Made by a program: the position numbers and the translations under genes | Notes under the pieces: generated by a model | Databases searched by the model: none | What the model was told of the DNA's origin: nothing | The model's input: the letters and a program-made list of their open reading frames with translations, nothing else | Assembly (NCBI RefSeq): GCF_001429185.1 | Contig: NZ_LMIW01000001.1 | Location: 1,267,490 to 1,331,489 of the forward strand | Source of the DNA: Terrabacter sp. Root85 | GTDB lineage: Bacteria > Actinomycetota > Actinomycetes > Actinomycetales > Dermatophilaceae | Direction: 5' to 3' | Length of the DNA: 64,000 bases | In this document: piece after piece, positions 18,435 to 36,221 of the stretch | Position numbering within the stretch: position 1 is the stretch's first letter | Layout: each line of letters starts with the position of its first letter

Positions 18435-20135
18435 GTGGAGGCCCGGCTGCTGCCGATGGGCGGCGCAGCCCTGCTCGTCGAGGTGGCCGACACCGATGCC
18501 GCGCTCGCCCTGCGTGCCCACCTGGCACCGATGGTCGAGCGTGCCGCAGGTGTCTGGGAGGCCGTCGACCACCTCGTGGCCGGGGCGCGCACCGTCCTCG
18601 TCGTGCTCCGGGACCCCGGGCGGCGGTCGGACGTCGGCCTGGCGTGCCTCGACGAGGCGACCCGCCTGACCGTGGCGGTCGCCCCGCCGACCGACGCGGC
18701 TGAGGTCGTGGTCGAGGTGCCGGTGCGCTACGGCGGGCCCGACCTCGACGAGGTCGCCCACCTCACCGGACTGACCCGCGACGAGGTCGTCCGCGCCCAC
18801 ACGGGCACGACGTGGCGGGTCGGGTTCGGGGGCTTCGCGCCCGGCTTCGCCTATCTCGTCGACGGCGACCCGCGCCTGCACGTGCCGCGTCGCGGCGAGC
18901 CACGCACACGTGTCCCAGCCGGATCCGTCGCTCTCGCAGGCGATTTCAGTGGCATCTACCCCCAGGACTCCCCCGGCGGGTGGCAGCTCATCGGCACGAC
19001 CGACGCCGTGCTGTGGGACGTCGACCGCGACCCGCCCGCGCTGCTCGCGCCGGGCACGTCGGTCCGTTTCGTCGACGCCGACCAGACCTCCTCGAGTGGC
19101 CCCGTGACCCCGGCCGTCCCACCCGTCACGGGGAGGGGTGGGACGACGGGGCCACTCGACTCCGGGGGGTCTCGGATGGGTGGGGCTCAGGGGACGACGG
19201 GGCCATTCGACTCTGGGGGGTCTCGGGTGGGTGGGGACATCGGGCGGCGGGGGCTCGAGGTGCTGGCCACCGGGCCGCTCACCCTCGTCGAGGACCTCGG
19301 CCGCCCGGGTCTCGCCGACGCGGGGGTGGGCCGTTCCGGGGCGGCCGACCCGACGGCATACCTCCTCGGTCTGCGGCTCGTCGGGCACCTGCTCGCCCCC
19401 CACGAGGCGAGCGGGCCGGCGCCCGCGTCCCTCGAGGTCACCCTCGGCGGGCTCTCGGTGCGCGCCCATGGTGACCTGCTCGTCGCGCTCACCGGCGCGC
19501 CCTGCCCCGCTGACGTCGACGGACGGCCGGTCCCGCACGGCGCCCCCGTCGCGCTGGTCGACGGGGCCGTGCTCACCCTCGGGGTGCCCGCTGCCGGCCT
19601 GCGCACGTGGCTCGCGGTGCGTGGCGGCGTCACGGTCGCGCCGGTGCTGGGCTCACGCGCGACCGACACCCTGGCGCGCGTGGGTCCGCCGCTGCCTGGC
19701 GCCGGTGACCTGCTCCCGATCGGGCCGCCACCAGCCACGTTCCCCGTCGTCGAGGTGGCACCGCAACCGAGCCTCACCGACGGCGAGGCGGTGCTCGACG
19801 TCGTGCCCGGCCCCCGTGCCGGCTGGTGCGACCTCACCGGCGTCGACGAGACCTCCTGGGCGGTCTCCTCGCGCAGCAACCGCGTAGGAATCCGCCTGGA
19901 GGGCAACGCGATCCAGCGATTGCCCGCGTATGCCGACCGCGAGCTCCCGAGCGAGGGGATGGTCCCCGGGGCGGTGCAGGTGCCACCCGGTGGCGAGCCC
20001 GTCGTCTTCCTCGCCGACCATCCGGTGACCGGCGGCTACCCCGTCGTCGCCGTGCTCACCTCACGAGCCATCGCGCTCGCCGCGCAGCTGCGCCCCGGCC
20101 AGCGGGTGCGGCTGCGGTGGTCGCGCGGGGACTGA
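18435..20135 (+). CDS. pxpBC: Fused 5-oxoprolinase subunits B and C (KipI-KipA)
   Basis: A single 566-residue protein joins PxpB (KipI-like, about residues 1-215; [17 protein letters not shown] and [20 protein letters not shown]) to PxpC (KipA, biotin-carboxylase-like domain, about 272-566; [38 protein letters not shown]). In many bacteria these are separate genes. The joining linker (about 216-271) is not protein-like: it is a duplicated DNA unit giving [14 protein letters not shown] then [14 protein letters not shown]. Start is GTG at 18435 directly after pxpA; ATG 18456 is an alternative. The sequence shows no other frame break. Confidence 0.9.
19141..19242 (+). repeat. 51-bp tandem duplication inside the pxpBC linker
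   Basis: Two adjacent 51-base units, 19141-19191 and 19192-19242, differ at only a few positions. Each contains GGACGACGGGGCCA, and 51 is divisible by three, so the frame survives. The segment just upstream (19092-19105) is the inverted form of the unit start, and a further inverted copy lies at 16226-16244. Confidence 0.85.
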
Positions 20136-20139
20136 ACCC

Positions 20140-21288
20140 TCAGGCGCTGCGTGCCCCGGTCCCGGTGTCCGGCTCGCGCCGCACTGCGGAGCGCCAGAAC
20201 GACACCTGGTCGGCGGCCTCCGGGGCGATGACCGTTGTCGGGCGCGCGACGGGCAGGGCGGGCACCGCGGGACGCACCGGGAGGATCATCGCGACGTCCG
20301 CACCGCCCCACGCGGAGACCCCGAGCTGGACCCACCCGCCGCGTCGCGTCGCGACGTCGCGCACGAGGGACAGGCCGAGCCCGGTCTGGGAGAGGTCGTC
20401 GCGCACGCCGTCGAGCACGCTGCTCGGGAGGTCCTGACCGGCGGCCGAGCGCAGCATGTCGGTGGTGAAGCCGCGGCCGGAGTCGGCGACCCCGATAGCG
20501 ATGGCGCCGCGCATCGGGCGGGCGTAGAGGAGGACGGTGTCGTCGTCGTGCGCGGTGTAGCGCAAGGCGTTCTCGATGAGGGTGTCGAGGCAGGCCCGCA
20601 GCCGCTCGCTCGAGCACTGGAGCGTGAGCGCCGACGACTCGACCTTCCAGCTTCGCTGGGCGACGGCCGACCACCGCTCGGCCGTCTGGTGGAGCACCGA
20701 GTCGAGCTCGACCTCGGTGACCTCGAGGTCGGAGCCGACGCGCATGCTCCGCACGAGCCGCTCGCACACGCGGGTGAGCCGCGCCAGCTCCTCGTCGACG
20801 ACCTGGAGGTCGGCGTGGTCCTCCCCGGGTGGCGTGCGGTCCATGAGCATCTCGAGGTAGCCGCGGGAGATCATGAGTGGCGACCGCATCTCGTGTGATG
20901 TGCGCAGCGTGAGCAGCTCACGCATCGTCGAGTCGGCGCGCTCCCGGGCCGCGTTGACCGTGAGATCTGAGAGCGCCTGCTGACGACGGCGCACGTGCCA
21001 GATCATGAGCGCCATGAGCAACAGCATGAGCGGGATCTCGGTGGTCTCCTGCCACTCGAGGACGTCGGTCATGACGCGGTAGACGAGGATCGCGCCGGTC
21101 ACGAAGGTGAAGACGCCGAGGCCGACCCACGTGGACCGCGGGCTCCACTGCTCGAGGCCGAAGCAGAGCGCGAAGGCCGCCCAGGCGATGTGGTACGGCA
21201 CGGTCTCGCTGCCCGGCAGCGCGATCATCGCGGCCGAGCAGAGCGCCGCGATGACACTCCAGACGAGGACCATCCGGTGCCGTCCCAT
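20140..21288 (-). CDS. Sensor histidine kinase
   Basis: This 382-residue membrane sensor has four or more N-terminal hydrophobic segments (about 5-110), a short linker, then a HisKA domain with SHEMRSPLMISRGYLEML (phosphorylated His). The HATPase domain has an N box, LIENALRYTA, a G1 box, VADSGRGF, and a G2 region, GLGLSLVRDVA. There is little extracytoplasmic loop, so it may sense within the membrane. Start is ATG at 21288, overlapping the regulator stop as TGATG, which makes regulator and kinase an operon. A C-terminal tail of about 45 residues beyond the ATPase domain has no known motif. It is convergent with pxpBC. It probably controls the divergent copper-oxidase cluster. Confidence 0.88.
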   Translation of the reverse strand: MGRHRMVLVWSVIAALCSAAMIALPGSETVPYHIAWAAFALCFGLEQWSPRSTWVGLGVFTFVTGAILVYRVMTDVLEWQETTEIPLMLLLMALMIWHVRRRQQALSDLTVNAARERADSTMRELLTLRTSHEMRSPLMISRGYLEMLMDRTPPGEDHADLQVVDEELARLTRVCERLVRSMRVGSDLEVTEVELDSVLHQTAERWSAVAQRSWKVESSALTLQCSSERLRACLDTLIENALRYTAHDDDTVLLYARPMRGAIAIGVADSGRGFTTDMLRSAAGQDLPSSVLDGVRDDLSQTGLGLSLVRDVATRRGGWVQLGVSAWGGADVAMILPVRPAVPALPVARPTTVIAPEAADQVSFWRSAVRREPDTGTGARSA

Positions 21289-21959
21289 CAGGCGTCCTCG
21301 TAGAGCCCGTACCCGACGCCGCGCAGCGTCTCGACCGGGATGTCCTGGCCGAGCTTGGCGCGGAGCCTGCCGACGCACACCTCGACGACGTTGCTGCCCG
21401 GGTCGAAGTCGAGGTGCCAGACGTCGTGGAGCAGCTCCTCCTTGTGGCACACCTGGCCGGCGCGCCGCATGAGGTGTGCGAGCAGGCTCAGCTCGCGCTC
21501 GGTGAGGGCGGCGCTGCGCGCCCTGAACGTCGCCCGGCGGCGCCCGACGTCGAGGCGTATGCCGGCCACCTCGAGGAAGCCGTCGTCAGCGGGAGCGCGC
21601 GCCGCCCCGACGTTGCGTCGGACGCGAGCCATGAGCTCGGTCAGGCTGAACGGCTTGGACACGACGTCGACGGCCCCGCGGTCGAGCGCCTCCACCCGGG
21701 CTCCCACGTCGGTGACGCCCGACAGCACGATCACCGGCGTCGTCTGCTTGCGCTCCCTGATCGCGTTGAGCACGGCCATGCCGTTGAGCCCGGGCATCAC
21801 GAGGTCGAGCACGACGAGATCGACGTCCCTCGACGCGAGCCGGTCTATCGCGGCGTTGGCCGAGGCAGCGGTCACCACCGAGTGTCCTTGGGACGACAAC
21901 GACTTCGCCAGCAACGTGCGTACGCGTTCCTCGTCGTCGACCACCATGACAGTTGCCAT
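21288..21959 (-). CDS. OmpR/PhoB-family response regulator
   Basis: This 223-residue regulator has a receiver domain (VMVVDDEERV acidic pair, phosphorylated Asp in VVLDLVMPG, SKPF switch Lys) and a winged-helix DNA-binding domain (TERELSLLAHLMRR, SNVVEVCVGRLRAKLG, TLRGVGYGL). Start is ATG at 21959, behind GGAGGGGGGA; a longer frame to 22100 has no site and adds a Cys-rich non-family stretch. It is co-transcribed with the kinase and divergent from the 1820-residue secreted protein gene, with about 315 bases between. Direct repeats of the type such regulators bind lie in that space. Confidence 0.92.
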   Translation of the reverse strand: MATVMVVDDEERVRTLLAKSLSSQGHSVVTAASANAAIDRLASRDVDLVVLDLVMPGLNGMAVLNAIRERKQTTPVIVLSGVTDVGARVEALDRGAVDVVSKPFSLTELMARVRRNVGAARAPADDGFLEVAGIRLDVGRRRATFRARSAALTERELSLLAHLMRRAGQVCHKEELLHDVWHLDFDPGSNVVEVCVGRLRAKLGQDIPVETLRGVGYGLYEDA

Positions 21960-22086
21960 GAAAGTCCCCCCTCCCCGATCTGTCGCCAAGTATGGATCCG
22001 AGCGTGTGACGGCGGAGTGGGAAAGGTCACAGAGCTGGGAAATCCGTGGTCGAGACCCGCATCTATCAGCGCAAATCGGGCGCCAA

Positions 22087-22173
22087 CATGACAGGAACAT
22101 GACGGCGGGCTGGCAACGGCATGACAGGTCCCTGAGCCGAGACCAACCCCGTCGATGACAGTTGCCTGAGCCG
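22087..22173 (+). promoter_or_regulatory. Direct-repeat array, candidate response-regulator operator
   Basis: CATGACAGGAA and CATGACGGCGG follow each other with an 11-base period (ATGAC at 22088 and 22099). ATGACAGGTCCCTGAGCCG at 22121-22139 lies two periods further on. A near copy, ATGACAGTTGCCTGAGCCG, is at 22155-22173. Tandem half-sites about 11 bases apart are the usual pattern for OmpR/PhoB-type dimers. The array is between the regulator gene and the secreted cluster and could control both. The rest of the 21960-22275 gap holds no gene. Confidence 0.6.
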
Positions 22174-22275
22174 TCGACCCATCTCCGCAGAGCGCCATGA
22201 CGGCGCGTGCGACGTTCTCGGGACGACGGGCTCGCACCGAGCCCTGCAGAGCATCACGTGGGGGTTGCCGTGGAC

Positions 22276-25200
22276 ATGCCAAGGCTGCGTAGGCGTTGCG
22301 TCCCGATCATCGCCGGACTGACCGCACTCGCCATCGCGGGGGTGGCCCAGGTCGGTGGACCGCTGGCTGCAGCGGCAGCCGCGCCGAGACCGGCGGCCGC
22401 GCCCGCGGCGCCCGCCGCGGCACCGGCCGCGGCACCGGCGGTGACCACTCCGACGGGTGGACCCTGCCCGACGACGACTGCCGCGGGGAAGGGCTGCATC
22501 ACCCTGACCGTCGCGAGCGCACGCTCCGTGGGCGCCGGGCCCGGCTTCATCCACAAGGGCGACCACGTCACGGCATACCAGTGGATGGTCAACGAGGACA
22601 GCACCGGCGACCCGGGCACGGCTGACGCCCCGCTCCTCGACCGGTGCCTGCCGTCGCGGGCGCCCGGCGGCAGCACGAAGCCGGCCACCCCCCAGGCGGG
22701 CGACCCGACCGAGCCCTATGCCGACAGCTGCCCGTGGCCGTCGGTGCGGCCCACGTCCGGATTCTCCAAGATCGTCGCGCAAGGCTCCGAGGCCGACCTC
22801 GACTCCGCGAAGGTCCTCGAGGGTCTGGCCCCCGGCAAGTACCTCATCTCCGTCACGGCCGACGGCTACAAGATCGACGGCGCGCACTTCACCGTCAAGG
22901 CGGGGCTCAAGGGCCTCGTGGACGTCGCGATGCAGCCGCTGCCCCTGCCGCTCGCCACGATCAAGATCCAGGTCTTCAACGACAACGTCCCCGCGGACGG
23001 CACCTACGAGGCCGACGCCGAGCGGGGTCTGTCCGGCTTCACCGGCAACCTCTCCGACGTCCTCGGGCCGGTGAGCACCGACTACTACGGCAACGCCCTG
23101 TGCACCGTCTACCGGCACGATGCCGCCGGACGGATGACGTTCGGCACCGACGGCAAGCCGGTCGTCGACACGACCCGCTCCACCGGCAAGTGCACGAGCG
23201 ACGCCTCGGGCGTCATCACGATCCCCAACCTCGGCCCGAACCGTTACGGCGCCACCGTCTCCCCGCCCGCCGGCCAGTCGGGCTGGGTCCAGACGACGAC
23301 CCTCGAGGGCGGGCACGACCACGACATCTGGGTGCAGGAGGGCGACACCGGCCTCGACACCGAGTTCATCAAGGGCGCCGAGCCCGTGCCGGCGACGCAG
23401 TTCGGCTTCGTCCGCGTCAAGGCCATGCCCACGTCCACCGCGACCGGCGAGGTCAAGGGCGTCGCCGTCGCCGGCCTGCCCTACGTCGGTGGGCAGAACG
23501 GCCAGGTCGTCCCCGAGACCGGCTGGGCCGGGTCGAAGTACGCCGGCCCGATCGCGTCGCCGTGGGTGGCGCTCTCGGACCTCACCGGTGGGGACGCGGC
23601 CGTCTACGTCGGGCGGGGCGCGGCCAACGGCTCCTTCGACATCAAGAACGTCCCGGACGGCACCTACCAGCTGACGATCTGGGATGACGCGCAGGACTAC
23701 ATCCTCTGGAGCTTCAACGTCGAGGTGTCCGGCGGCGACCTCGTCGACGTCGGCAACAAGATGCTCGTCGGCTGGTTCACGCACGTGCGCGGCACCGTCT
23801 TCGTCGACGACAACGGCAACGGCAAGCGCGACCCGGGCGAGGCTCCGGTCCCCGGCTTCACGCTGACCGTCCGCGAGCGCGACAACTCGCTCATGGACCA
23901 GTACACGAACCTCGTCAACACCGGCGACGACGGTGTCTACGACATCAAGGAGGGCTACCCGCTCAGCAAGTGGCTCGTCCTCGAGGCGTTCAACACCCGC
24001 TACCGGACCACCGGCGTGACCTACCAGGCGGACAACGAGGACTCCCCGACGACCATCCTCGGCGGGCTCGTCGACATCGACTTCCTGCCCGTCATCGGCC
24101 TCTCGGGACGCATCGACTGGGGCGTCGAGCCGTACGCGACGAACGAGAACGGCGGCATCGCCGCCACCGTGTCCTACGACGTGACGCGCAACGAGCTCGA
24201 CCCCGCCGACGCCGTGAGCGAGGACTACCAGCCGGGCATCCCCGACGTGAACGTGCACGTCTACGCCTCCGTGCCCTGCACGGCCACGACGGCCGAGGAG
24301 AAGGCGAACGCGTGCCGCCAGGGCAAGGCGATCGTGCCGCTGTCGGTGCCCAACCCGGCCCACGAGACCGACCCCACGGCCCCGGCGACCATCGCGAACG
24401 CCGATCCCGAGCGCGGCGCGCTCGTCAAGGGCGCCGAGGTGCAGGACCAGTACCCGAGCGAGGAGTGGGCCCCGCCGCGGGGCTGCACCGCTCGCCAGTG
24501 GGACGGCACCGAGCTGACCGACCAGCTCGCCCTGCCCGAGTCCGGGCCCGAGGCGAACAACCTCTGCGTCGAGGCGCCGATGATGGGAGTGCAGGTCGGC
24601 CCGTCCGACAGCACGCCCGGGGCAGCCGGCCAGACGGTCAACGGCAACTACGGCTTCGGAGACCTCCCCGCGGGTGACTACATCACCTCGGTCGAGATCC
24701 CGACCGACCCGGTCGACGGCAAGCCGATGTACCAGGTCACCCGTGAGGAGGACGTCAACGTCTTCGACGGAGACAGCTACCTCTCCCAGGAGAACTTCCC
24801 GCCGACCGTGGCCGAGGCGGCCTCCGACGGCCCCGGCACCGGCAACGACCCGCTGCCCCCGACCCAGCCCCCGTCGCAGGGAGCCGGCATCATCTCGGGC
24901 TGCGCGGGCGCGCTCCACACCGTGCGCGTCACGAACCCGGCCTTCCTCGACGGCGGCGGCAGCCCCTTCGAGGGCCAGGACCGGCCCCTGTGCGACTCCA
25001 AGCTCATCACCGTCCGCAGCGGCCAGACCGTCGCCCCGAACTTCAACCTCTACACGCCCGTCCCGATCCCCACGCACTTCTGGGGCCTGACGATCAACGA
25101 CCTCGGCCTGTCCCTCGACAAGCGGAGCGCCAACTACGGCGAGGCCCAGGGCCTGCCCAACGTCCCCGTCGGCCTCTACGACTGGAGCGGACGCCTCGTC

Positions 25201-27738
25201 GACACGACGCACACCGACTTCAACGGCTTCTACGAGGCCCTCGAGCCCTCGACCGGGACGTACAACTGCCCGGTCCCGGCCGGTCCCTGCCCGAACATGT
25301 ACCGCTTCACGGGCAACGACCCCGGAGGACCGGGTGACCCGAACCCGGACTACAACCCGGCCTACCGGACGATCAGCACGAACTTCCAGGGCTGGCCCGG
25401 TCTCTACACCGTGACCGACACGGCGCCCACCCAGGCCGCCGCGACGGTGCTCGCCCCCGGGACCACCGCGTCGAACCCGGCGCGTTGCAACCTCGGCACG
25501 ACGGACCCGCAGCTGCTCGCCGTGAGCCGGCCGTATGTGCGTCCCTCGTCGGCGGCCGCCGACCGCACCGTGACCATCACGGGCACCGGCTTCGGGGCGA
25601 CCCGCGGCACCGGCACCGTGACGCTGACGAACAGCGCCGGCACGAACGTCCCCGTGACAGTCGGGCCGTGGTCCGACACGAGCATCACGTTCACGGTGCC
25701 CACGCTGTTGACCACGACAGCGGGCGCCCTCAAGGTGACCGTCACCAACGGGTCGAAGCGCTCGACGTACAACGGCCTGACGGTCTGGAACCTCGGCACC
25801 CAGACGAGTACCAGTGGCACGACCGCCACCAACCCGCGCGTCGTCGAGGTGGGGCCGGGCAAGGCGTACGGCAACGTCCAGGCCGCGCTCGAGGCGGCCA
25901 CGCCGTCCTCGACGAGGCGGCACTGGCTCGTCGTCGTGTGGCCGGGCGCCGCGACCGCGCTCAACCCGCGCGGTGAGTACAACGAGAACCTCCTCGTCCA
26001 CCACCGTGTCGCCATCCAGGGCGTCGGTCCCGGCGGCTTCACGACCAACGCTGACGGCTCCCAGCGGTGGGTGCCCGGCTCGATCATCGACGGGTCCGGC
26101 TTCAGCCCTGACCTGCCCGGCGGCACGGCGTGGATCACCCGGCTCGGGACGCTGACCTACAGCGGCGAGCTCGACGTGCCCGACGCCGCGACGATCACCG
26201 TGCTCGACGACCCGGCGCGCGCCAACGTGGGCGACACGGCATACCCCGTCGCCATCGACGGGCTGCAGGTCACCGGCGGCGCCCAGTCCGACTTCCCCGG
26301 CAACGTCAACGTGCTGACCGGCGGCGTCACGACGCCGTACGGTGCGGCCGGCGCGCTCGTCACCCAGGGCGGCGGCATCTACCTGCACAACAACAACCGC
26401 AGCGTCCGCATCACCGACAACGTCATCGTCGGCAACAGCGGCAGCTACGGCGGCGGCATCCGCGTCGGCACGCCCTACACCGGCGACAACCGCAACTACG
26501 ACACCCTCATCGCCGACAACCAGGTGCTCAACAACGGCGGGACCAACCTCGCCGGCGGCATCGGCCTCTTCACCGGCAGCGATGGCTACAAGGTCCTGCA
26601 CAACGCCATCTGCGGCAACTTCTCCGCGGAGTACGGCGGCGCGATGACGGCCTTCGGCTACATGTCGAACACGGGTGGCAACAACGGCGGCACCATCACC
26701 GGCAACACCATCTGGTTCAACAGCTCCTACGACGAGGGTGGCGCCGTGATGCTCGCCGGCGAGCTGCCGTCGAGCCCCACCGGCCTCAGCCCCGGTACGG
26801 GCGAGGCGACGATCGACGCCAACGTCATCGACGCCAACCTCGCGAGCGACGACGGCGGCGGCATCCGACTGCTCCAGGTGGCCGGAACGCACGTCACCAA
26901 GGCCGACCCGCAGACGATCACCATCACGAACAACACCGTCACCAACAACGTGTCGGCCCACGAGGGCGGCGGCATCGCCCTCGACGACGCGCCGTTCGTC
27001 AACTTCGTCGACAACACCGTCGCGGGCAACATGACGACGGCGACCGCGGTCACCTCGGACGGTCTCCCGGCCCCGGCAGGCCTCGCGACCGGGCCGAACA
27101 GCGACCCGCTCATGGCCAGGCTCAACAGCGGCGGCGCAGGTGCCTTCGCGATCGTCAAGGTCACCGGGCAGTCGACGTTCAGCAAGCCGGTGCTCCTCGA
27201 CAACGTCTTCAACGACAACCGCGCCGGCACCTACGTCGGCGGCTACGTCTACGGCATCGGTGGCACCCTGCCCGACGGTGCGACCAACTCGGTCGACCCC
27301 TGGGACATGGCGGTCGTCGGCGGCCCGGGCACGCTCCACCCGGTGGGCGGTGTCATCCAGACGACGACGGGCACCGACGGCGGAGTGGGCGTCACCGTCA
27401 GTGACACCCCCGGCTTCAAGGACCCGACGCCCGAGCTGACGGTCACCGTCCTCGCCGCACGCACCTTCCCGGCCTTCCGCGAGGCGGCCATCGTCACGGC
27501 CCTGTTGCCCCCTCGCCTGCGGGCGGACTACCACCTCTCGGGGACGGCAGCCACGGCATACGCCAAGGGCCGCGGGAAGACCTCGGTCGTCTACGGAAGC
27601 CAGACGTTCCTGGGCATCACCGCCCAGTGGACCGCGACCGTCACCGCGGCAGCGCGCGACATCGACAACCAGGCGAGGCCGACCGGATCCGGGACTGCCG
27701 CACGGTACGACTCCGGCTCCGACCAGTACTACCCGTAA
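22276..27738 (+). CDS. Giant secreted SdrD-B / TIG / beta-helix protein
   Basis: This 1820-residue exported protein is the first gene of the copper-oxidase cluster. A basic start (MPRLRRRCVPIIAGL) and hydrophobic core form a signal peptide, followed by an Ala/Pro-rich spacer to about residue 75. Several Cna-B/SdrD-B-like beta domains fill about 90-1050; the clearest is RGTVFVDDNGNGKRDPGEAP near residue 505, with typical Ca-binding Asp/Asn spacing. An IPT/TIG domain lies at about 1076-1160 (TVTITGTGFGATRGTG). From about 1190 a right-handed beta-helix runs to about 1700 with repeated NxITGNTI/NVIDAN-like rungs. There is no LPXTG or C-terminal anchor. ATG 22276 is chosen for the signal sequence; GTG 22258 or 22270 are possible. 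It may be a surface scaffold or a polysaccharide-binding partner for the oxidase-like proteins. Confidence 0.75.
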   Translation: MPRLRRRCVPIIAGLTALAIAGVAQVGGPLAAAAAAPRPAAAPAAPAAAPAAAPAVTTPTGGPCPTTTAAGKGCITLTVASARSVGAGPGFIHKGDHVTAYQWMVNEDSTGDPGTADAPLLDRCLPSRAPGGSTKPATPQAGDPTEPYADSCPWPSVRPTSGFSKIVAQGSEADLDSAKVLEGLAPGKYLISVTADGYKIDGAHFTVKAGLKGLVDVAMQPLPLPLATIKIQVFNDNVPADGTYEADAERGLSGFTGNLSDVLGPVSTDYYGNALCTVYRHDAAGRMTFGTDGKPVVDTTRSTGKCTSDASGVITIPNLGPNRYGATVSPPAGQSGWVQTTTLEGGHDHDIWVQEGDTGLDTEFIKGAEPVPATQFGFVRVKAMPTSTATGEVKGVAVAGLPYVGGQNGQVVPETGWAGSKYAGPIASPWVALSDLTGGDAAVYVGRGAANGSFDIKNVPDGTYQLTIWDDAQDYILWSFNVEVSGGDLVDVGNKMLVGWFTHVRGTVFVDDNGNGKRDPGEAPVPGFTLTVRERDNSLMDQYTNLVNTGDDGVYDIKEGYPLSKWLVLEAFNTRYRTTGVTYQADNEDSPTTILGGLVDIDFLPVIGLSGRIDWGVEPYATNENGGIAATVSYDVTRNELDPADAVSEDYQPGIPDVNVHVYASVPCTATTAEEKANACRQGKAIVPLSVPNPAHETDPTAPATIANADPERGALVKGAEVQDQYPSEEWAPPRGCTARQWDGTELTDQLALPESGPEANNLCVEAPMMGVQVGPSDSTPGAAGQTVNGNYGFGDLPAGDYITSVEIPTDPVDGKPMYQVTREEDVNVFDGDSYLSQENFPPTVAEAASDGPGTGNDPLPPTQPPSQGAGIISGCAGALHTVRVTNPAFLDGGGSPFEGQDRPLCDSKLITVRSGQTVAPNFNLYTPVPIPTHFWGLTINDLGLSLDKRSANYGEAQGLPNVPVGLYDWSGRLVDTTHTDFNGFYEALEPSTGTYNCPVPAGPCPNMYRFTGNDPGGPGDPNPDYNPAYRTISTNFQGWPGLYTVTDTAPTQAAATVLAPGTTASNPARCNLGTTDPQLLAVSRPYVRPSSAAADRTVTITGTGFGATRGTGTVTLTNSAGTNVPVTVGPWSDTSITFTVPTLLTTTAGALKVTVTNGSKRSTYNGLTVWNLGTQTSTSGTTATNPRVVEVGPGKAYGNVQAALEAATPSSTRRHWLVVVWPGAATALNPRGEYNENLLVHHRVAIQGVGPGGFTTNADGSQRWVPGSIIDGSGFSPDLPGGTAWITRLGTLTYSGELDVPDAATITVLDDPARANVGDTAYPVAIDGLQVTGGAQSDFPGNVNVLTGGVTTPYGAAGALVTQGGGIYLHNNNRSVRITDNVIVGNSGSYGGGIRVGTPYTGDNRNYDTLIADNQVLNNGGTNLAGGIGLFTGSDGYKVLHNAICGNFSAEYGGAMTAFGYMSNTGGNNGGTITGNTIWFNSSYDEGGAVMLAGELPSSPTGLSPGTGEATIDANVIDANLASDDGGGIRLLQVAGTHVTKADPQTITITNNTVTNNVSAHEGGGIALDDAPFVNFVDNTVAGNMTTATAVTSDGLPAPAGLATGPNSDPLMARLNSGGAGAFAIVKVTGQSTFSKPVLLDNVFNDNRAGTYVGGYVYGIGGTLPDGATNSVDPWDMAVVGGPGTLHPVGGVIQTTTGTDGGVGVTVSDTPGFKDPTPELTVTVLAARTFPAFREAAIVTALLPPRLRADYHLSGTAATAYAKGRGKTSVVYGSQTFLGITAQWTATVTAAARDIDNQARPTGSGTAARYDSGSDQYYP

Positions 27739-27855: not shown

Positions 27856-29148
27856 ATGACCGACGAATCACGCTCAGACGCCGCACGGCGCACGGCGGGC
27901 TCAGGTCTCGGCCGGCGAGCCGTCATGCTGGGTGGGGCGGGCGCCGTGGGCAGCGTCTTCCTCGGCACGCGCCTCAGCTTCGGACAGCAGGCCGCCCGCC
28001 CGACCGTCGTGCAGGCCGCCGCAACGGGCCCCGCCAAGTCGGTGCACCTGGCCGGCACCGACGGCTGGGTCAGCATGCCGGCCGGCTCGCCCGACGACCT
28101 GCCCTTCTTCCCGGACTCGCTCGCGCCGTCGCCCTTCGACACGTACGTCTTCGGCTTCCGTGACGTCACGGGGATGTCGGCGACGCAGGTGGCGGCCACG
28201 CGCGGCAAGGCGCAGATCTCGGCGCCGATGCTCGCCTTCGACGAGCTGGACGAGGTGACGATCACGCTGTCCAACCTCGGACTCGTCATGCGGCCCGACC
28301 TCTTCGACGGCCACACGCTGCACTGGCACGGCTTCGTCAACGCCATCCCGCTCTTCGACGGCGTGCCGGAGCTCTCGCTCGCCGTGCCGATCGGGCGCGA
28401 CCTGTCCTACTTCTACCGCCCCCGCGACGCCGGCACGTACATGTACCACTGCCACTTCGAGGACGTCGAGCACGTGCAGATGGGCATGACCGGCATGGTC
28501 TTCGTGCGGCCGAAGCAGAACAGGGCGCCGGTGGCCGGCCACCCGATGGGCACCAAGTACGCGTACAACGACGGCGACGGCAGCACGCGCTACGACCGCG
28601 AGTTCGCTTTCATGATCACCGAGCTGTGGTCGGCCGCCCACTACCGCGACGCCCACATCCAGGTCAGCGACTGGACCGACTACGCCCCGAGCTTCTGGCT
28701 GCTCAACGGCCGCGGCTACCCCGACACCATCGCGCCAGGGGGCAACCCGACGTCGACGGCGGCGGGTCGGCTGCAGTACCAGCCGATCAGCTCGCTCATC
28801 ACCTGCAACGTCAACGAGACGGTGCTGCTGCGGATGTCGAACCTCGGCTACCAGAACCACGCCCTGACGCTCGACAACGTCGACATGCAGATCATCGCCA
28901 AGGACGCGACCCTGCTCCGCGGTCGCGACGGCTACACGAACTACCTCGAGACCAACACCGTCGACGTGGGGCCCGGCGAGAGCCGGGACGTGCTCGTCAC
29001 GCCCCACCAGCCCGGCGAGTACCTGCTCTACGACCGCAACTACGCCTATCTGGGCAACGGCGGGGGACCCGGCTGGGGCGGCATGATGACCGTCCTCCGC
29101 GTCGGCGCGCCCGGCACCTACGGGCTCCAGACCCAGCCCAACACCTGA
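27856..29148 (+). CDS. Multicopper-oxidase-like protein 1, carries T1 and half of the trinuclear site
   Basis: This is a 430-residue Tat-exported protein (GLGRRAVMLGGAGAVG, R20-R21) with two cupredoxin domains. Domain 1 has H153-x2-H156-W-H158-G and Y-H198-C199-H200 ... H206 ... M211. This layout matches the last domain of ordinary multicopper oxidases: type 1 ligands H153, C199, H206, M211, and trinuclear His 156, 158, 198, 200. The gap from H200 to H206 is two residues longer than usual. Domain 2 (about 250-415) lacks the second HxHG/HxH pair: the matching places read QNHALTLDN and LLYDRNYAYLG. The protein alone therefore lacks half the trinuclear ligands. Start ATG 27856 has AGGAGC upstream. 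A 20-base gap separates it from the next oxidase gene. Confidence 0.85.
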   Translation: MTDESRSDAARRTAGSGLGRRAVMLGGAGAVGSVFLGTRLSFGQQAARPTVVQAAATGPAKSVHLAGTDGWVSMPAGSPDDLPFFPDSLAPSPFDTYVFGFRDVTGMSATQVAATRGKAQISAPMLAFDELDEVTITLSNLGLVMRPDLFDGHTLHWHGFVNAIPLFDGVPELSLAVPIGRDLSYFYRPRDAGTYMYHCHFEDVEHVQMGMTGMVFVRPKQNRAPVAGHPMGTKYAYNDGDGSTRYDREFAFMITELWSAAHYRDAHIQVSDWTDYAPSFWLLNGRGYPDTIAPGGNPTSTAAGRLQYQPISSLITCNVNETVLLRMSNLGYQNHALTLDNVDMQIIAKDATLLRGRDGYTNYLETNTVDVGPGESRDVLVTPHQPGEYLLYDRNYAYLGNGGGPGWGGMMTVLRVGAPGTYGLQTQPNT

Positions 29149-29168
29149 CGAGCCGACGGAGGACGATC

Positions 29169-30509
29169 ATGCGACTCAACCGATCACGACGCCACCCGGG
29201 TGACGCGGCGAGTGCCGCGCGCACCCGACGGCGCACGGGCATCCTCGCGGCCGTCGGCGCCCTCGTCGCCGCGGTGGCCGTCGGCTCGACCGCCGGTGCC
29301 CAGGCTGCGACGTCCGAGGGGCTGCTCTGCCAGACCGACCCGCAGCAGACCTTCTCGCTCACCGCGCGGACGGGCTACGTCTCGACGCCGGACGGCAACT
29401 CGATCTACATGTGGGGCTACGGGATGAGCTCCGGACAGTTCCAGCTGCCCGGGCCGGTCCTCTGCGTCACGTCCGGCCAGCCGGTCACCGTCATCCTGCA
29501 CAACGACCTGCCGGAGGCGACCTCGATCCTCTTCCCGGGCCAGAAGGCGGTCAAGGCGAACGGCAACCCGGCCCAGCCCCAGCTCGACACGGGCGGCTCC
29601 CTCACCTCGATGGTCCAGCCGGCCGGTGCCTCGGGCGGCTCCGTGACGTACACCTTCACGGCGGGCTCGCCCGGGACGTACCTCTACTCGAGCGGCACCG
29701 ACGTGACGAAGCAGCAGCAGATGGGCCTCTACGGAGCGCTCGTCGTGCGCCCCGCCGGGGCGGCCGGGCAGGTCAACGCCCGCGCCGACTCGGCCTTCAA
29801 CCCACAGCACGAGTACGTCTTCCTCCTCTCGGAGATCGACCCCGAGGTGCACCTGGCCGTCGAGCGCTCTCAGCCCGTCGACTGGGGCGCCTACAACGCG
29901 CGCTACTACCTCATCAACGGCCGCAGCATGCCCGACACCCTGGCGCCCAACAACGCCTCGTGGCTGCCGAGCCAGCCCTACGGCGCCCTCGTGCACATCA
30001 AGCCGTACGACCCGACCAGCAACCCGCTCCCGGCGGTCATCCGCTACCTCAACGCGGGACGGGGCAACTACCCCTTCCACCCGCACGGGAGTGACGAACG
30101 CGTCGTCAACAAGGACGGTCATGCCCTCCAGGGCACGAGCGCCACTGCGCCACAGGATCTTTCGTACCTCAAGTACGACATCGACGTCATGCCCGGGCAG
30201 ACCGTCGACGCGCTGATGGACTGGCGCGACGTCGAGCAGTGGAACGCGACGACGAACCCGATCCCGACGCAGCTTCCCGTCATCACCGACCAGCTCCTCG
30301 TGGGCGCCGACACGTGGTTCAGCGAGAGCCCCTACCTCGGCACGAAGGGCACCTTCCCGTCGAACATCACCGTGAACAACGAGTGCGGCGAGTACTACCA
30401 CGTGGCCCACAGCCACGCGCTCCAGCAGGCGACCAACTACGGCGCAGCCTTCGGCGGCATGATGACGGTCTTCCGCATCGACCCGCCCGCCGGCTGCCCG
30501 ACGAGCTGA
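29169..30509 (+). CDS. Multicopper-oxidase-like protein 2, carries the other half of the trinuclear site
   Basis: This 446-residue secreted protein (signal core GILAAVGALVAAVAVGS, cleavage near AQA-A) has two cupredoxin domains. Domain 1 has lost copper ligands: LHNDLPEATSILFPGQ replaces the HxHG strand and YLYSSGTDVTKQQQMG replaces the HSH strand. Domain 2 has YPF-H304-P-H306-G and H414-S-H416-ALQQ. This resembles the non-T1 domain of ordinary oxidases, with no Cys or axial Met near these His. It supplies exactly the four His missing from protein 1. Start ATG 29169 follows GGAGG. The next gene begins 11 bases after the stop. A small GGMMTVFRI end strand resembles the end of protein 1. Confidence 0.85.
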   Translation: MRLNRSRRHPGDAASAARTRRRTGILAAVGALVAAVAVGSTAGAQAATSEGLLCQTDPQQTFSLTARTGYVSTPDGNSIYMWGYGMSSGQFQLPGPVLCVTSGQPVTVILHNDLPEATSILFPGQKAVKANGNPAQPQLDTGGSLTSMVQPAGASGGSVTYTFTAGSPGTYLYSSGTDVTKQQQMGLYGALVVRPAGAAGQVNARADSAFNPQHEYVFLLSEIDPEVHLAVERSQPVDWGAYNARYYLINGRSMPDTLAPNNASWLPSQPYGALVHIKPYDPTSNPLPAVIRYLNAGRGNYPFHPHGSDERVVNKDGHALQGTSATAPQDLSYLKYDIDVMPGQTVDALMDWRDVEQWNATTNPIPTQLPVITDQLLVGADTWFSESPYLGTKGTFPSNITVNNECGEYYHVAHSHALQQATNYGAAFGGMMTVFRIDPPAGCPTS

Positions 30510-30520
30510 GGACGACAACG

Positions 30521-33500
30521 ATGACCTCTCGACCCAGCCTCCGGCACCGCCTCGGCGTCTCCGCCGTCGCCGCCGCGCTCGCGACCGTCCCCTTCGCCGC
30601 CGCGACTGCGTATGCCGTCTCGCCGGCCTCCGTGGCCACGTCGGCCTCCGCGGTCACCTCCTCCGTCGCCCCGGCTGTCGCACCCGCGGTTGCGCCGGCG
30701 GCACCGGTCGGCAAGCTGACTCCGAACACGCCCGGCTGCACCGTCACGCCGGCGTCCGCGCCTGACCCGGAGATCGTCGCGTGCGACCTCTGGGCCAAGC
30801 CCGGCACGAACCAGGTTCTCGGACAACCGATCCCGATCTGGGGCTACTCGACGACCTCGGCCGGGGCGGCCACCGCGCCCGGCCCGGCCATCATCGCCCG
30901 CCAGGGCGACCGCGTCGTGCTGACGCTGCACAACGGCCTCGACGAGCCGACCTCGCTCGCGCTGCCCGGGCAGCCCGCGGCGTCCATCACCGAGGGGCTG
31001 CCCACGGCGGCCGCGACGACCGGCATCGCGCCGGGCGCCACCGCGCGCTACGTCTTCACCGCAGGCCGGCCCGGCACGTTCCTCTACGAGGCCGGCCACA
31101 CCTCGGGCGGAGCCCGTCAGGTGGCGATGGGTCTTGCCGGTGCGCTCGTCGTCCTCGGCGACGGCACGGCATACGGCCAGGCGTACAACGACGAGGCGGT
31201 GCTCGTGCTCAGCGAGATCGACCCCGCCCTCAACGCGCACCCGACGACCTTCGACATGCGCGAGTTCCACCCGGCCTACCGGCTCATCAACGGCAAGCCC
31301 TTCCCGTCGAGCGACCCCGTGCCGACCGACCAGGGCCACACCGTGCTCCTGCGCTACGTCAACGTCGGGTCCGAGCTGCACTCGATGAGCACCCTCGGCG
31401 CCGACCAGGTCGTCCTGTCGCACGACGGGCACGGCCTCGCGTTCCCGGAGCCGTCCGTCGTCGTGCCGGTCGACCCCGGCGTCAGCGTCGATGCGCTCGT
31501 CACCGTGCCCACCGGACCCGAGTCGAAGGTCGCGGTCTACGAGTCCTCGGCCCGGCTCGACAACGCGGGCCAGACCACGGCCGACCCGCTGGCGGTGGCG
31601 TTCGGCGGCATGATGACCTTCCTCGACACGAACGCGCTTGCACCCTCGACCGACGGAGTGGGCCCGGTCTCGACAGCGATCTCCGCGACCCCGAACCCGA
31701 CGGACGCCACCGGCCCCGTCACCGTCACCGCGACCGTGAGTGACGCGACCACAGGTCACGGCACCGTCAGCCAGGCCGAGTTCGTCGTCGACGACGCGGT
31801 CACCGTCGGCGTCGGCAGCGGCGTCCCGATGACCGGGACCTGGGGGGTCGAGACCACCACGGTCAGTGGCGCGATCCCGGCCGTGGCGACCGCAGCGGAC
31901 TGTGTTGCGCCCGTGCCTCCCGTCGACCTGCACTGCCTGACGTCGACGAAGCACACGGTGTTCGTGCGCGGTCTCGACGCCGCCGGCAACTGGGGCGTCG
32001 TCGGGTCGGTGATCCTCAACGTCGCCAAGTCCGGCCCGCAGACCGTCGCACTCTCGGTGAGCCCGTCGCCCGCCAGCGGCAAGGGCACCGTCACGGTCAA
32101 CGCGACCGGTGACGACACCGCTGCCGGAGGCACGATCACCGGAGCCGAGTACTTCCTCGGTGCGGCCGCCGGCGCCAACGGCACCGGCCACGCGATGACC
32201 CTCAACCGGGTCGCGACGAAGGTCGCCGAGACCGGGACCATCCCGGCCGCGGACGTCCTCGCGCTCGGCGAGGGGACCGCGAAGGTGTGGGTCCACAGCC
32301 GCAACTCCCAGAACATCTGGGGCCCGGCCGTGCCCGTCGACCTCACCGTCGACCTCACAGCGCCGGCCGTCAACGCCGCCACCGTCGGCCCCAACCCGAC
32401 CAACGCGGTGCTCAGCTCGAAGTCCTACCCCGGCTACCTCGTGATCTCTGCCGAGCTGCAGGACCGCGACGCCGGCAACGGGCTCCAGAGCTCGGTGCTC
32501 GCCGGCGAGGCCTTCGTCGACCCGACGAGCACGACCCCGACGTTCGGCAAGGGACTCAGCCTCATCGCCGTCGACGGTGCGTTCGACTCGCCGACGGAGC
32601 AGGTCTACGGCCTCATCCCGCTGACCCAGGTCAAGGCGATGACACCGGGCGAGCACCAGGTCTACGTGCACGGCAAGGACGCCGCCGGCAACTGGGGCAG
32701 CCTCACCGCGAGCAACGCCCTCGTGCGGCTCTTCGTCGACAGGACGGCACCGGTCCTCGGGGCCGCGTCGGCCTCGCCGAACCCGACCAACGGCTCGGCC
32801 ACGGTCACGCTCTCCGCGCCGGTGACGGAGGCCCCGGTCCCGACCTACGTCGGGCCGCGCTTCCAGGGCGCCGAGTTCTGGATCGGCACGACCGACCCCG
32901 GTGCCGGCAAGGCGACGCGGGTCCAGGTGACCGACTCGGGCACGGGTGTCACGGCGGCGATCCCGCTGACCGGCATCCAGCCGGGCACGGTCCAGTTCAA
33001 CCTCCGCGTCCAGGACGCGGCGGGCAGCTGGAGCAACGCGTCCGCGGTCACGGTCCAGGTGACCCGGCCCAACGCGATCTTCAGCGACACGTTCAACAGC
33101 GGCAACCTGCTCGCCTGGTTCGGGCGGAGCGGGGCAGTCTCGACAAGCCTGGCTGCCGGCATACCGTTCGGCACCGGCAGCTACGGCATGGTCGCGACCG
33201 GCTCGGCCACCCCGGCGTACGTCACCGACACCACGCCGTCGGCCGAGACGACCTACCGCGCGCAGTTCTCCTTCAACGCCAACACGCTCTCGTCGGGCAC
33301 CAGCACGACGGCCTGGCTGACGGTGTTCGAGGGGCGCAGCGCCACGGGTCAGTCGTTCGCGGTGCAGTACCACCGCGTCGGCACGGGGGCGGTGACGCTC
33401 CGCACCGTGATGAACCGCGCGGCGTTCGGCGCCACGACGAGCCCGGCGCTCAGCCTGGCCTCCGGCGCCCACACGATCCGCATCGACTGGGTGCAGGGGA

Positions 33501-33682
33501 CGGGCGGGTCGCTGACCCTCCGCGTCGACGGCACCCTGCGTGACACGCGGAGCGGCAACAACACCGGTACGGCCCTGCAGATCGAGACGGCTCGTCTCGG
33601 GGTCATCGCCGGCACCACGTCGACCACGGCGGGCACGGCCTGGTTCGACAGCTTCGTCTCGACCCGGAACAGCATCCCCTGA
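30521..33682 (+). CDS. Multicopper-oxidase-like protein 3 without copper ligands, with Ig-like and LamG-like tail
   Basis: This 1053-residue secreted protein has a signal peptide ending near TAYA, an Ala/Val/Pro spacer, then two cupredoxin-like domains (about 60-370) related to protein 2. All ligand positions are lost: LHNGLDEPTSLALPGQ, FLYEAGHTSGGARQ, ELHSMSTLGAD and YESSARLDNAG stand where HxHG/HxH motifs would be. Four Ig-like repeats follow at about 378, 504, 613 and 742, each opening with a SxSPNPTxxxG-type strand; two end with DAAGNWG. A LamG/ConA-like domain (about 852-1053, FSDTFNSGNLLAWFGRSG) ends the protein. A structural or substrate-binding role seems more likely than catalysis. 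Confidence 0.8.
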   Translation: MTSRPSLRHRLGVSAVAAALATVPFAAATAYAVSPASVATSASAVTSSVAPAVAPAVAPAAPVGKLTPNTPGCTVTPASAPDPEIVACDLWAKPGTNQVLGQPIPIWGYSTTSAGAATAPGPAIIARQGDRVVLTLHNGLDEPTSLALPGQPAASITEGLPTAAATTGIAPGATARYVFTAGRPGTFLYEAGHTSGGARQVAMGLAGALVVLGDGTAYGQAYNDEAVLVLSEIDPALNAHPTTFDMREFHPAYRLINGKPFPSSDPVPTDQGHTVLLRYVNVGSELHSMSTLGADQVVLSHDGHGLAFPEPSVVVPVDPGVSVDALVTVPTGPESKVAVYESSARLDNAGQTTADPLAVAFGGMMTFLDTNALAPSTDGVGPVSTAISATPNPTDATGPVTVTATVSDATTGHGTVSQAEFVVDDAVTVGVGSGVPMTGTWGVETTTVSGAIPAVATAADCVAPVPPVDLHCLTSTKHTVFVRGLDAAGNWGVVGSVILNVAKSGPQTVALSVSPSPASGKGTVTVNATGDDTAAGGTITGAEYFLGAAAGANGTGHAMTLNRVATKVAETGTIPAADVLALGEGTAKVWVHSRNSQNIWGPAVPVDLTVDLTAPAVNAATVGPNPTNAVLSSKSYPGYLVISAELQDRDAGNGLQSSVLAGEAFVDPTSTTPTFGKGLSLIAVDGAFDSPTEQVYGLIPLTQVKAMTPGEHQVYVHGKDAAGNWGSLTASNALVRLFVDRTAPVLGAASASPNPTNGSATVTLSAPVTEAPVPTYVGPRFQGAEFWIGTTDPGAGKATRVQVTDSGTGVTAAIPLTGIQPGTVQFNLRVQDAAGSWSNASAVTVQVTRPNAIFSDTFNSGNLLAWFGRSGAVSTSLAAGIPFGTGSYGMVATGSATPAYVTDTTPSAETTYRAQFSFNANTLSSGTSTTAWLTVFEGRSATGQSFAVQYHRVGTGAVTLRTVMNRAAFGATTSPALSLASGAHTIRIDWVQGTGGSLTLRVDGTLRDTRSGNNTGTALQIETARLGVIAGTTSTTAGTAWFDSFVSTRNSIP

Positions 33683-33750: not shown

Positions 33751-34275
33751 ATGAGCACCACCACAGCAGTTCCGCCGGTCCAGCCGGCCGGTCCCACCGG
33801 ACCCTCCGCCCCGTCCACCCGGACGGGTCGGCAGGGTCGGGCCAGGGTCGCGCTCGCCGTCGTCGCCGTCCTCGTCGTCGCGGTCCTCGGTCTCCTCGGG
33901 GCCCGTGCGCTGCGAGGCGGCGACGACCCGGGGCGACCGGTCCCGCACTCCGACGCGATGGAGACGGCCCTCGGCGTCCGCATCTCTCGCGTCGCGGTCG
34001 TCGGCGACGGTGGCCTCGTCACCGTCAGCTACGTCGTCCTCGACGTCGACAAGGCGAGCCGCTTCCAGGCCGACGTCAAGCACCCGCCGGTGCTGCGCAG
34101 CGAGGCCCGCGACGGCTCGACGAACCGCGTCTCGGTCATGCGGCAGGGGCACATCAACCGCGCGGGCGCGACGTACTACTTCGTCTACCAGAACACCGGG
34201 GGCGCGCTCCGCGCCGGTGAGGACGTGACGATCGAGTACGGCGGCCTCCGCCTCGAGCACGTTCCGGTGCTCTGA
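33751..34275 (+). CDS. Hypothetical membrane-anchored protein upstream of copCD
   Basis: This 174-residue protein has a Pro/Thr-rich cytoplasmic N-terminus (about 1-30), one membrane segment (VALAVVAVLVVAVLGLLGA) and an extracytoplasmic domain of about 110 residues. The domain is beta-rich (RISRVAVVGDGGLVTVSYVV, TYYFVYQNTGGAL) and ends in GLRLEHVPVL. I do not recognise the family. Start ATG 33751 is preceded by GGAGGG. Its stop overlaps the CopC-CopD start as TGATG, so a role in copper delivery or assembly beside CopCD is a reasonable inference, but no Cys/Met/His copper motif is evident. Confidence 0.75.
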   Translation: MSTTTAVPPVQPAGPTGPSAPSTRTGRQGRARVALAVVAVLVVAVLGLLGARALRGGDDPGRPVPHSDAMETALGVRISRVAVVGDGGLVTVSYVVLDVDKASRFQADVKHPPVLRSEARDGSTNRVSVMRQGHINRAGATYYFVYQNTGGALRAGEDVTIEYGGLRLEHVPVL

Positions 34276-36221
34276 TGAGCCTGCTGGGACTGCGACGGGC
34301 CCTGCTGGCCCTCGCGGTGACGCTCGGCTCGGCCCTGCTCGTCGCGCTCGGCGCGGGCCCGGCCTCGGCGCACGCCTACCTCGCGTCGAGCAACCCGCCC
34401 GACGGGGCCAGCCTCGCGGCCGCCCCGCGCACCATCGAGCTGCGCTTCACCGAGCACGTCGTCCTCGCCTCGACCGAGATCATCGTCACCGAGCCGGACG
34501 GCCACCGCGTGGCTCCGACGGCGATGACGCTCGTCGAGAGCGACGAGGACCAGGAGGCCCCGGCGACCGTCGTGGCCACGATCCCCGCGCTCGGCGTCGG
34601 CGCCTACCACGTGTCCTGGCGGACCCTGTCGAGCGACGACCTCCACGAGTCCGCGGGCATCTTCGCCTTCGGCGTGCAGAGCGAGGTGCAGGCGGCCGGT
34701 CCGAGCGAGACGAACCCGGACCTCTTCGAGCTCGTCGGCCGGTGGGCCGTCCTCGCGGGGATCGGGGCCGGGCTCGGCGCCGTCGTCGTCGGGCGCCTGC
34801 TGCGCCGCGTGCCGGAGGCGACGAGCGGTATGCCGCGGGCCTGGCTGCGCCGTCAGGCGTTCCGTCTCCTCGTCGTCGGGGCGACGGCCGCCCTGGCCGT
34901 CGCGCTCGTCGACCTCGTCCGCTTCGGCGCCGGGGCCTTCACCCCCGGCTACGTGCTGCGGTGGGGGCTGCGCGAGGCGGCCCTGCTCGGAGCGGCGCTC
35001 GCCCTCCGACCCGACCGGCCGGCATCGGGCAGGGTGTCGCGCGACGTCGCAGCCACGGCCGCGCTCGTCGGCGCCGGCCTGCTCACCGTGAGCATCGGTC
35101 ACTTCGGCGTCCGCGGCGGCCCGACGTGGGTCGTCACCTCGACCGCGCACCTCGTCGCCGCCCTCCTGTGGGCGGGCTCGGTGGCCGCCCTCGCGCTGCT
35201 CGGCGTGCGCGCCGCGCGGCTGGGACTCTCCCGTGCGGACGTCCGCGGGATCCTGCGGGGCTTCCGCACTCCCGCGACGGTCTCGGTCGTCGTCGTCGCC
35301 GTCACCGGCGTCTACCTCGCGAGCGACGTCGTCGTCTCGGTCGATGCCGTGCTGCTCACCACCTACGGTCGCGTCCTGCTGGCCAAGGTCGCCCTGGCCG
35401 GTCTCGTCGGGCTCGTCGCCCTCGCGACCACCCGCGCCCTGCACCCTCGGGGGTTGCAGGACGGTCGGGTCCGCCGGCGGCTCATCGCGGCGGAGGCCCT
35501 GGGGCTGCTCGTCGTCGCCGCCCTCGGTGGTCTCCTCGCCACGGGGCAGCCCGCCGTCTCGCCGCGCCTCGTCAGCGCGCAGGCGCCGAGCGTCATCGAC
35601 GACCGGCCGGTCGCCGACCTCCAGCAGACCCTCGCCCTGCGGCCGAACCGTCCCGGCGCCAGCGTGGCCCTCATCGACGTGCTCGACACCCGTCGGCCGT
35701 CCCCCGGGCCCGTCACGGGTGTCTCCGTCACGGTCCGAGGCGGTTCGTCCGGTGGCGTCGAGGCTCGTCCCGCCGCGGCCGAGGCCCCGGTGACGGCGAC
35801 CGCCGTGACGCCGTCGCGCTGGTCGGCGGCGCTCGAGCTGCCGGCCGGTGGACCGGTCGACGTCGACGTCGTCGTGCACCGGCGCGGTCTCGACGACGTG
35901 CGCAGCACCGTGCACTGGGTGGTCGGCCCGAGCGCCTCCGACCCGGCCCCGGTCGTGTCGCGGGCGCCCATCTCGGGGCTGCTGGCCTCGGCGTCCGCCG
36001 CGCTCGCCGTGGCCGCCGTGATCGGGGCCGCCTGGCTGCTCTGGAGGCGCCGCCGCCGTCCGGCTCCGGCACCGGGTCGTACGCGCGCGGTGGCCGAGCG
36101 CGGGGGCGCCCGGCCCGCGGCGTCCGCTGCCCGGCCCGCGGCGTCCGCCGTCCCCGGCAGCACCGACTCGGCTCAGGACGAGACCGGCACTGTCACCCCA
36201 CGATCCGCCGCGAGTCGGTGA
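34275..36221 (+). CDS. copCD: CopC-CopD fusion, copper binding and import membrane protein
   Basis: This is a 648-residue fusion. A signal peptide ends in PASA, so the mature protein begins HAYLASSNPP with the N-terminal His used by CopC for Cu(II). The CopC domain (about 35-125) ends with DDLHESAGIFAFGV, which holds the second conserved Asp/His. About eight membrane segments (about 155-440) form the CopD part. An extracytoplasmic domain (about 450-575) and a final membrane helix (SASAALAVAAVIGAAWLLW) with a basic cytoplasmic tail complete it. CopC/CopD proteins bind periplasmic copper and move it inward. Location directly behind three oxidase-like genes suggests copper supply to them. Confidence 0.88.
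   Translation: MSLLGLRRALLALAVTLGSALLVALGAGPASAHAYLASSNPPDGASLAAAPRTIELRFTEHVVLASTEIIVTEPDGHRVAPTAMTLVESDEDQEAPATVVATIPALGVGAYHVSWRTLSSDDLHESAGIFAFGVQSEVQAAGPSETNPDLFELVGRWAVLAGIGAGLGAVVVGRLLRRVPEATSGMPRAWLRRQAFRLLVVGATAALAVALVDLVRFGAGAFTPGYVLRWGLREAALLGAALALRPDRPASGRVSRDVAATAALVGAGLLTVSIGHFGVRGGPTWVVTSTAHLVAALLWAGSVAALALLGVRAARLGLSRADVRGILRGFRTPATVSVVVVAVTGVYLASDVVVSVDAVLLTTYGRVLLAKVALAGLVGLVALATTRALHPRGLQDGRVRRRLIAAEALGLLVVAALGGLLATGQPAVSPRLVSAQAPSVIDDRPVADLQQTLALRPNRPGASVALIDVLDTRRPSPGPVTGVSVTVRGGSSGGVEARPAAAEAPVTATAVTPSRWSAALELPAGGPVDVDVVVHRRGLDDVRSTVHWVVGPSASDPAPVVSRAPISGLLASASAALAVAAVIGAAWLLWRRRRRPAPAPGRTRAVAERGGARPAASAARPAASAVPGSTDSAQDETGTVTPRSAASR

Follow-up and report, generated by a model that had tools for sequence, protein, structure and literature searches.

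Three adjacent genes for multicopper oxidase paralogues, none of which carries a complete set of copper ligands, raise the question of whether their products can jointly form one oxidase. The genes, P1, P2 and P3, lie head-to-tail on the same (+) strand of the window, the whole 64,000-nucleotide stretch of the Terrabacter sp. Root85 genome that was analysed. Each shows, on inspection by eye, a ribosome-binding site and an export signal (the signal of P1 contains a twin-arginine-like stretch), and all three proteins have oxidase cupredoxin domains according to Pfam. The genes, their neighbours and the ligand-bearing codons, numbered along the window, are:

22207–27738, + strand: U, 1843 aa (SdrD_B and TIG domains); neighbour of P1 on the upstream side
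27856–29148, + strand: P1, 430 aa; exported two-domain oxidase paralogue
28312–28329, + strand: P1 codons 153–158 (H-T-L-H-W-H); roles assigned via alignment to 3g5w
28447–28488, + strand: P1 codons 198–211 (H198-C199-H200...H206...M211); roles assigned via alignment to 3g5w
29169–30509, + strand: P2, 446 aa; exported two-domain paralogue
30078–30086, + strand: P2 codons 304–306 (H-P-H); two trinuclear His
30408–30416, + strand: P2 codons 414–416 (H-S-H); two trinuclear His
30521–33682, + strand: P3, 1053 aa; ligand-free two-domain paralogue with a long C-terminal part
33751–34275, + strand: X, small, no Pfam match; downstream neighbour
34275–36221, + strand: CopC-CopD fusion; candidate copper supply

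The best matches of P1 among solved structures are the type C two-domain multicopper oxidases 3g5w, from Nitrosomonas europaea (E = 4.9e-22), and 2zwn (7e-19), and the next match follows at 4.8e-11. Like these enzymes, P1 consists of two cupredoxin domains with a type 1 site in domain 1, where the ligand spacing is also that of 3g5w and 2zwn. A listing of all His and Cys residues gives H153-TL-H156-W-H158-G, H198-C199-H200, H206 and M211 in P1 domain 1; alignment to 3g5w assigns H153, C199, H206 and M211 to the type 1 site and H156, H158, H198 and H200 to the trinuclear site. Both His pairs that 3g5w has in domain 2 are lost from P1, HAIHTHG being replaced by NHALTLD and IHDHVDTH by LYDRNYAY. 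The His of P1 domain 2, H335, is off any trinuclear position and is a His in just 37 of 81 aligned rows (the window and the best 80 of 341 relatives).

P1 domain 2 thus has no conserved His that could serve as a neighbour-supplied ligand, which speaks against P1 alone working as a homotrimer in the manner of copper nitrite reductases, with type 1 and type 2 copper. Such enzymes do occur among the matches of P1, but P1 carries the HCH and HxH trinuclear motifs, scores 34.5 bits with NCBIfam TIGR02376 against a cut-off of 296.3, and would as a nitrite reductase leave P2 unexplained. We consider this reading very improbable.

The places of the two domain-2 His pairs of 3g5w are taken in P2 by H304-P-H306-G and H414-S-H416, which make up the other four trinuclear His. 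Listing of all His and Cys shows no type 1 site in P2 and no ligand motif in its domain 1, and the same listing shows no copper-ligand motif in the cupredoxin pair of P3. In profile alignments H304 and H306 of P2 fall on T338 and D340 of P1 and on S290 and L292 of P3. Together, P1, P2 and P3 contain exactly one full multicopper oxidase ligand set, so that, judged by ligand residues alone, there is one trinuclear site among three two-domain units. A sequence-only reading of the locus had proposed this division: a type 1 site and four trinuclear His in P1 domain 1 with no trinuclear His in its domain 2, and four trinuclear His in P2 domain 2 with none in its domain 1 and no type 1 site. The alignments bear it out and place the two halves of the one complete set at homologous positions. 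The same reading had P3 losing all motifs and gaining Ig-like and LamG-like domains; the loss holds for the cupredoxin pair, but at E up to 0.01 Pfam detects no domain in the C-terminal part.

The division of the trinuclear His as four in P1, four in P2 and none in P3 is unlike that in type C oxidases, which hold all of them in one chain. As far as the available text of PMC13151041 goes, two-domain oxidases are trimers in which the trinuclear site is coordinated by two protomers; in those of type C the type 1 copper sits in the N-terminal domain, and each site of the homotrimer is made by domain 1 of one chain against domain 2 of the next. The known type C homotrimer therefore has three sites, whereas one would be expected per trimer here (PMC13151041, available text).

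The ligands of both proteins are conserved far beyond the window. In the motif-free set of 17 loci, consisting of the window and 16 stretches found by similarity search with P1, the eight ligands of P1 and the four of P2 are invariant (17/17), while the identity of P1 and P2 to those of the window falls to about 46–47%. A wider set was obtained by a P1-profile scan of a genome collection, which gave 341 relatives, the best 80 of which were analysed. The scan patterns TYM[YF]HCH and EHV[QH]MGM include H198, C199, H200, H206 and M211, whose conservation in the wider set is therefore partly by construction; H153, H156 and H158 of P1 and all ligands of P2 lie outside the patterns. In this set H153, H156, H158, C199, H200, H206 and M211 of P1 are present in all 81 rows (the best 80 of 341 and the window) and H198 in 80 (Leu in L070). 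H304 and H306 of P2 are present in 79 of 79 rows, and H414 and H416 in 78 of 79, the row of L116 being cut by a contig end. Stray HxH motifs occur once in P1 domain 2 (1/81, L087), once in P2 domain 1 (1/79, L058) and twice in P3 (2/75, L076 and L097). Among 53 non-redundant sets the most conserved domain is P1 domain 1, with a mean identity of 70%; the ligand-bearing domain of P2 is not the better conserved one (54% for domain 2 versus 62% for domain 1), and the two domains of P3 are the least conserved (51% and 41%).

Gene order is equally constant. P1, P2 and P3 follow each other in this order on one strand in all 17 motif-free loci, and P1 is followed by P2 in 80 of the best 80 of 341 relatives. 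The downstream P2 has its full score in 78 of these 80; in L088 it is a contig-end fragment, and in L121 it is found as two pieces around an N run with both motifs still visible. P3 comes after P2 above the score threshold in 74 of the 80, and the other six stretches end within 2,125 bases of P1. The best 80 belong to Actinomycetota (48), Chloroflexota (28), Pseudomonadota (1) and Myxococcota (1), with two unassigned, and no open reading frame fusing P1 and P2 was found in any of them. An artefact in which a single oxidase gene was split by a frameshift or misassembly would make the ligand sets complementary, as they are. It is refuted by the conserved three-gene arrangement: the three paralogues are full-length, every one has a start and an export signal of its own (by eye), and the genes are separate in all of the best 80 of 341 loci across four phyla. 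The chance of such an artefact is close to nil.

Among 149 family genomes, P1 (E up to 1e-10) and P2 (E up to 1e-40) match the same 16, the genome of the window among them, with 17 full copies of each; among 396 phylum genomes, the two profiles match the same three, one of which has two copies of each. P1 or P2 alone was never found in these 149 and 396 genomes. As to whether the three genes always occur together, in the genomes sampled P1 and P2 are confined to the same genomes, they are adjacent in all of the best 80 of 341 loci, and P3 is next wherever the contig allows. The window and 25 of the 80 loci supplied 26 sequences per paralogue, and a tree of all 78, built with a quick method, resolves them into three clean groups, one each for P1, P2 and P3, each on one side of a branch, with support of 98–100, and the triplication therefore predates the sampled lineages. 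The split of the ligands over P1 and P2 is old and conserved. The pairwise distances of P1, P2 and P3 correlate (r = 0.94, 0.83 and 0.88; 74 sets, with the shared species phylogeny left in), as expected from co-inheritance.

Several loci depart from the layout in the window. In L085, L086, L106 and L111, from about 300 to 1,476 extra residues lie between P2 and the cupredoxin pair of P3, so the ligand-free P3 has large N-terminal additions in some Chloroflexota loci. L124:79-14844 has a second P2–P3 pair upstream of a P1–P2–P3 set; the P1 of that pair would fall past the end of the contig or stretch. The genome of the window has three more Cu-oxidase_3 matches outside the window (contigs C8 and C9), which are other oxidases.

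Some loci have the genes in the same frame with nothing but stops between them, so that their products can be folded in tandem as a single chain. The P1–P2 tandem was modelled with the L076 sequence (its P1 is 79% identical to that of the window) and a 91-row alignment, 76 single-protein rows of which were checked for placement with 0 misplaced. The AlphaFold model has a pLDDT of 86.3 and a pTM of 0.87, and such a pTM over two bodies of 370–400 residues means that the relative placement of P1 and P2 is predicted confidently. The P1–P2–P3 tandem (L095, 21-row alignment) has a pLDDT of 67.9 and a pTM of 0.41 and is uninformative on the arrangement. Modelling of the complexes, which had been suggested as a check, thus favours the packing of P1 with P2, with the interface predicted by exclusion as described below, and gives no guidance for all three chains.

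A Foldseek search with the P1–P2–P3 model places six-domain chains at the top of the list with TM scores of 0.20–0.24 by query length, which leaves the arrangement uninformed; six-domain chains also lead the list for the P1–P2 model. One unit of the latter (P1 or P2) fits 3g5w with a TM score of 0.76 by target and 0.31 by query length (3.2 Å, 367 columns), so one unit matches the two-domain protomer fold. Against ceruloplasmin and factors V and VIII in sequence order, the P1–P2 model reaches TM scores of 0.27–0.30 by query length with an rmsd of 15.6–19.1 Å. This is the worth of one unit, and P1 and P2 are therefore not packed as consecutive ceruloplasmin units, an arrangement in which P1 domain 2 would contact P2 domain 1. 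With this contact excluded, the remaining contact in a three-unit ring is that of P2 domain 2 on P1 domain 1, as the ligands demand. The modelled P1–P2 packing thus fits the predicted interface, by exclusion and assuming a ring.

Coevolution was rejected as evidence for this contact. Of the 300 highest-ranking inter-protein pairs in 74 paired sets, 91 join P1 domain 1 to P2 domain 2 where 24.5 would be expected, an excess that beats shuffles ignoring lineage. Shuffles that keep 4, 8 or 14 clusters (12 shuffles each) match or exceed it, however, with mean enrichments of 4.9, 4.6 and 4.2 versus 3.7 observed; the signal follows from the difference between the two main operon lineages. The linked residues at P1 170–172 and P2 421–434 (families A1 and A2), in domain 1 and domain 2 respectively, differ between these lineages and perhaps form a lineage-specific interface.

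The alternative that P1 and P2 are separate copper proteins, such as an electron carrier and a copper chaperone or sensor with no shared cluster, draws on the export signal that each carries (by eye) and on the predicted nature of the P1–P2 complex itself. It has to contend with retained residues that match the two halves of a trinuclear site exactly, stand at homologous positions and are kept in four phyla, with genes that are always adjacent and with the confident joint packing of P1 and P2, and we regard it as improbable. It is very likely that P1 and P2 have a trinuclear site in common. The heteromeric enzyme that had been put forward as the simplest explanation gains support from the complementary conserved ligands, the adjacent and co-occurring genes, the two-domain pattern of P1 and the confident P1–P2 packing.

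The assembly that we infer, including its ring order, copper content, O2 reduction and the roles of P3 and U, would proceed from exported paralogues related to type C oxidases that form one heterotrimeric ring instead of a homotrimer. The ring order would be P2–P1–P3, with domain 2 of each chain facing domain 1 of the next. Placed in a type C ring in this order, P1, P2 and P3 yield one complete site and two empty interfaces: the sole complete interface, between P2 domain 2 and P1 domain 1, would contain eight trinuclear His, and the type 1 copper would be kept in P1 domain 1 alone. Electrons would enter at this type 1 copper and pass over the Cys-His bridge to the trinuclear cluster shared by P1 and P2, where O2 would be reduced to water. 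Both the electron route and the O2 chemistry are established for the multicopper oxidase superfamily. P3 would complete the ring and, together with the co-encoded protein U, anchor the enzyme to the cell surface.

A full P1:P2:P3 heterotrimeric ring with one active interface is likely. That P3 completes it is probable from paralogy, gene order and arithmetic. Alternatively, P3 may stay outside the ring as an anchor or mineral-binding accessory, with the shared site residing in a P1:P2 heteromer of another stoichiometry. The low conservation of the P3 cupredoxin domains, its long extra C-terminal part and the confident modelling of the P1–P2 pair by itself point in this direction. P3 nevertheless retains both cupredoxin domains and comes after P2 wherever the contig allows, and the known two-domain oxidases are trimers (PMC13151041, available text); in a trimer, P1 and P2 leave a third place. 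An accessory P3 is therefore unlikely, though less so than two independent copper proteins.

Heteromers are known among proteins with oxidase-type domains. Factor VIIIa is a heteromer with oxidase-type cupredoxin domains, its chains being cleavage products of one precursor, and POXA3 laccase is a heterodimer in which the small subunit is unrelated to laccase and supplies no copper ligand. The locus resembles ceruloplasmin and MnxG in having three two-domain units with a single trinuclear ligand set, but it differs from them in being three separate genes rather than six cupredoxin domains in one chain. Three- and six-domain oxidases are monomers (PMC13151041, available text), and the six-domain enzymes consist of three two-domain units with at most one trinuclear site left (PMC3600357, available text). 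In the bacterial six-domain enzymes described in the latter text, this site is located between domains 2 and 3 and the mononuclear site in domain 2; P1–P2–P3 differ in having the type 1 site in the first domain of a unit. Mnx also has MnxE and MnxF subunits, which are unrelated to P1, P2 and P3 (PMC5622069, available text). A heteromeric oxidase with a shared trinuclear site was not found among the literature matches listed, which cover mostly freely accessible literature. An active site built from two different proteins, as seems to be the case here, would set these proteins apart from the known enzymes of this kind, which use one chain or identical copies.

The gene surroundings suggest that the enzyme works at the cell surface and has a copper supply of its own. 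U lies before P1 in 16 of the 17 motif-free loci (as a contig-end fragment in L032; L033 starts at a contig end) and upstream in 73 of the 80 wider loci; in the seven loci without it, the sequence before P1 is no longer than 2,239 bases. In 71 of the 73 the best-matching piece of U stops no more than about 310 bases from the start of mature P1, and in L069 and L103 farther away; U is a probable surface partner of the enzyme. Anywhere in the stretch, X is matched in 54 of 80 and CopC-CopD in 40 of 80; the CopC-CopD fusion is a possible source of copper. Response regulator and sensor kinase genes lie at 20140–22100 of the window (− strand), divergent from U. A response regulator is matched in 25 and a kinase in 22 of the 80 stretches, some of the kinase matches being weak or on the other side, and these may perhaps be the regulators of the operon. 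Genes at 17143–20135 are by eye similar to 5-oxoprolinase pxpA/B/C and unrelated to the oxidase.

As to the substrate, the leading guess is a metal ion at the surface, for instance Mn(II). The Mn(II)-oxidising Terrabacter strain MOB-326 has 98% 16S rRNA identity to T. tumescens (PMC6396730, available text), and the operon is present in T. tumescens JCM 1365 (L049), so that the relationship of MOB-326 to an operon-bearing species provides a weak link to Mn. The operon is also present in a Methylococcaceae MAG named MnB_9 (L110). The available part of a hot-spring Mn paper (PMC9224936) contains nothing specific to this operon.

We put at roughly 0.7 the probability that P1, P2 and P3 form an obligate heterotrimer, a gene-separated counterpart of ceruloplasmin in which two chains make one site and the third is structural, and which occurs widely in Actinomycetota and Chloroflexota as an old surface enzyme, perhaps a metal (Mn) oxidase. 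If this is true, the enzyme would be a multicopper oxidase with a trinuclear site contributed by different gene products. Active sites would have been lost as the paralogues specialised within a heterotrimer while their genes stayed unfused, which would parallel how ceruloplasmin and other six-domain enzymes arose. Annotation pipelines would report a pair of incomplete oxidases and a dead one in place of what is probably a single enzyme. The operon also draws attention to an oxidase, as yet unstudied and probably located at the cell surface, that many environmental bacteria possess.
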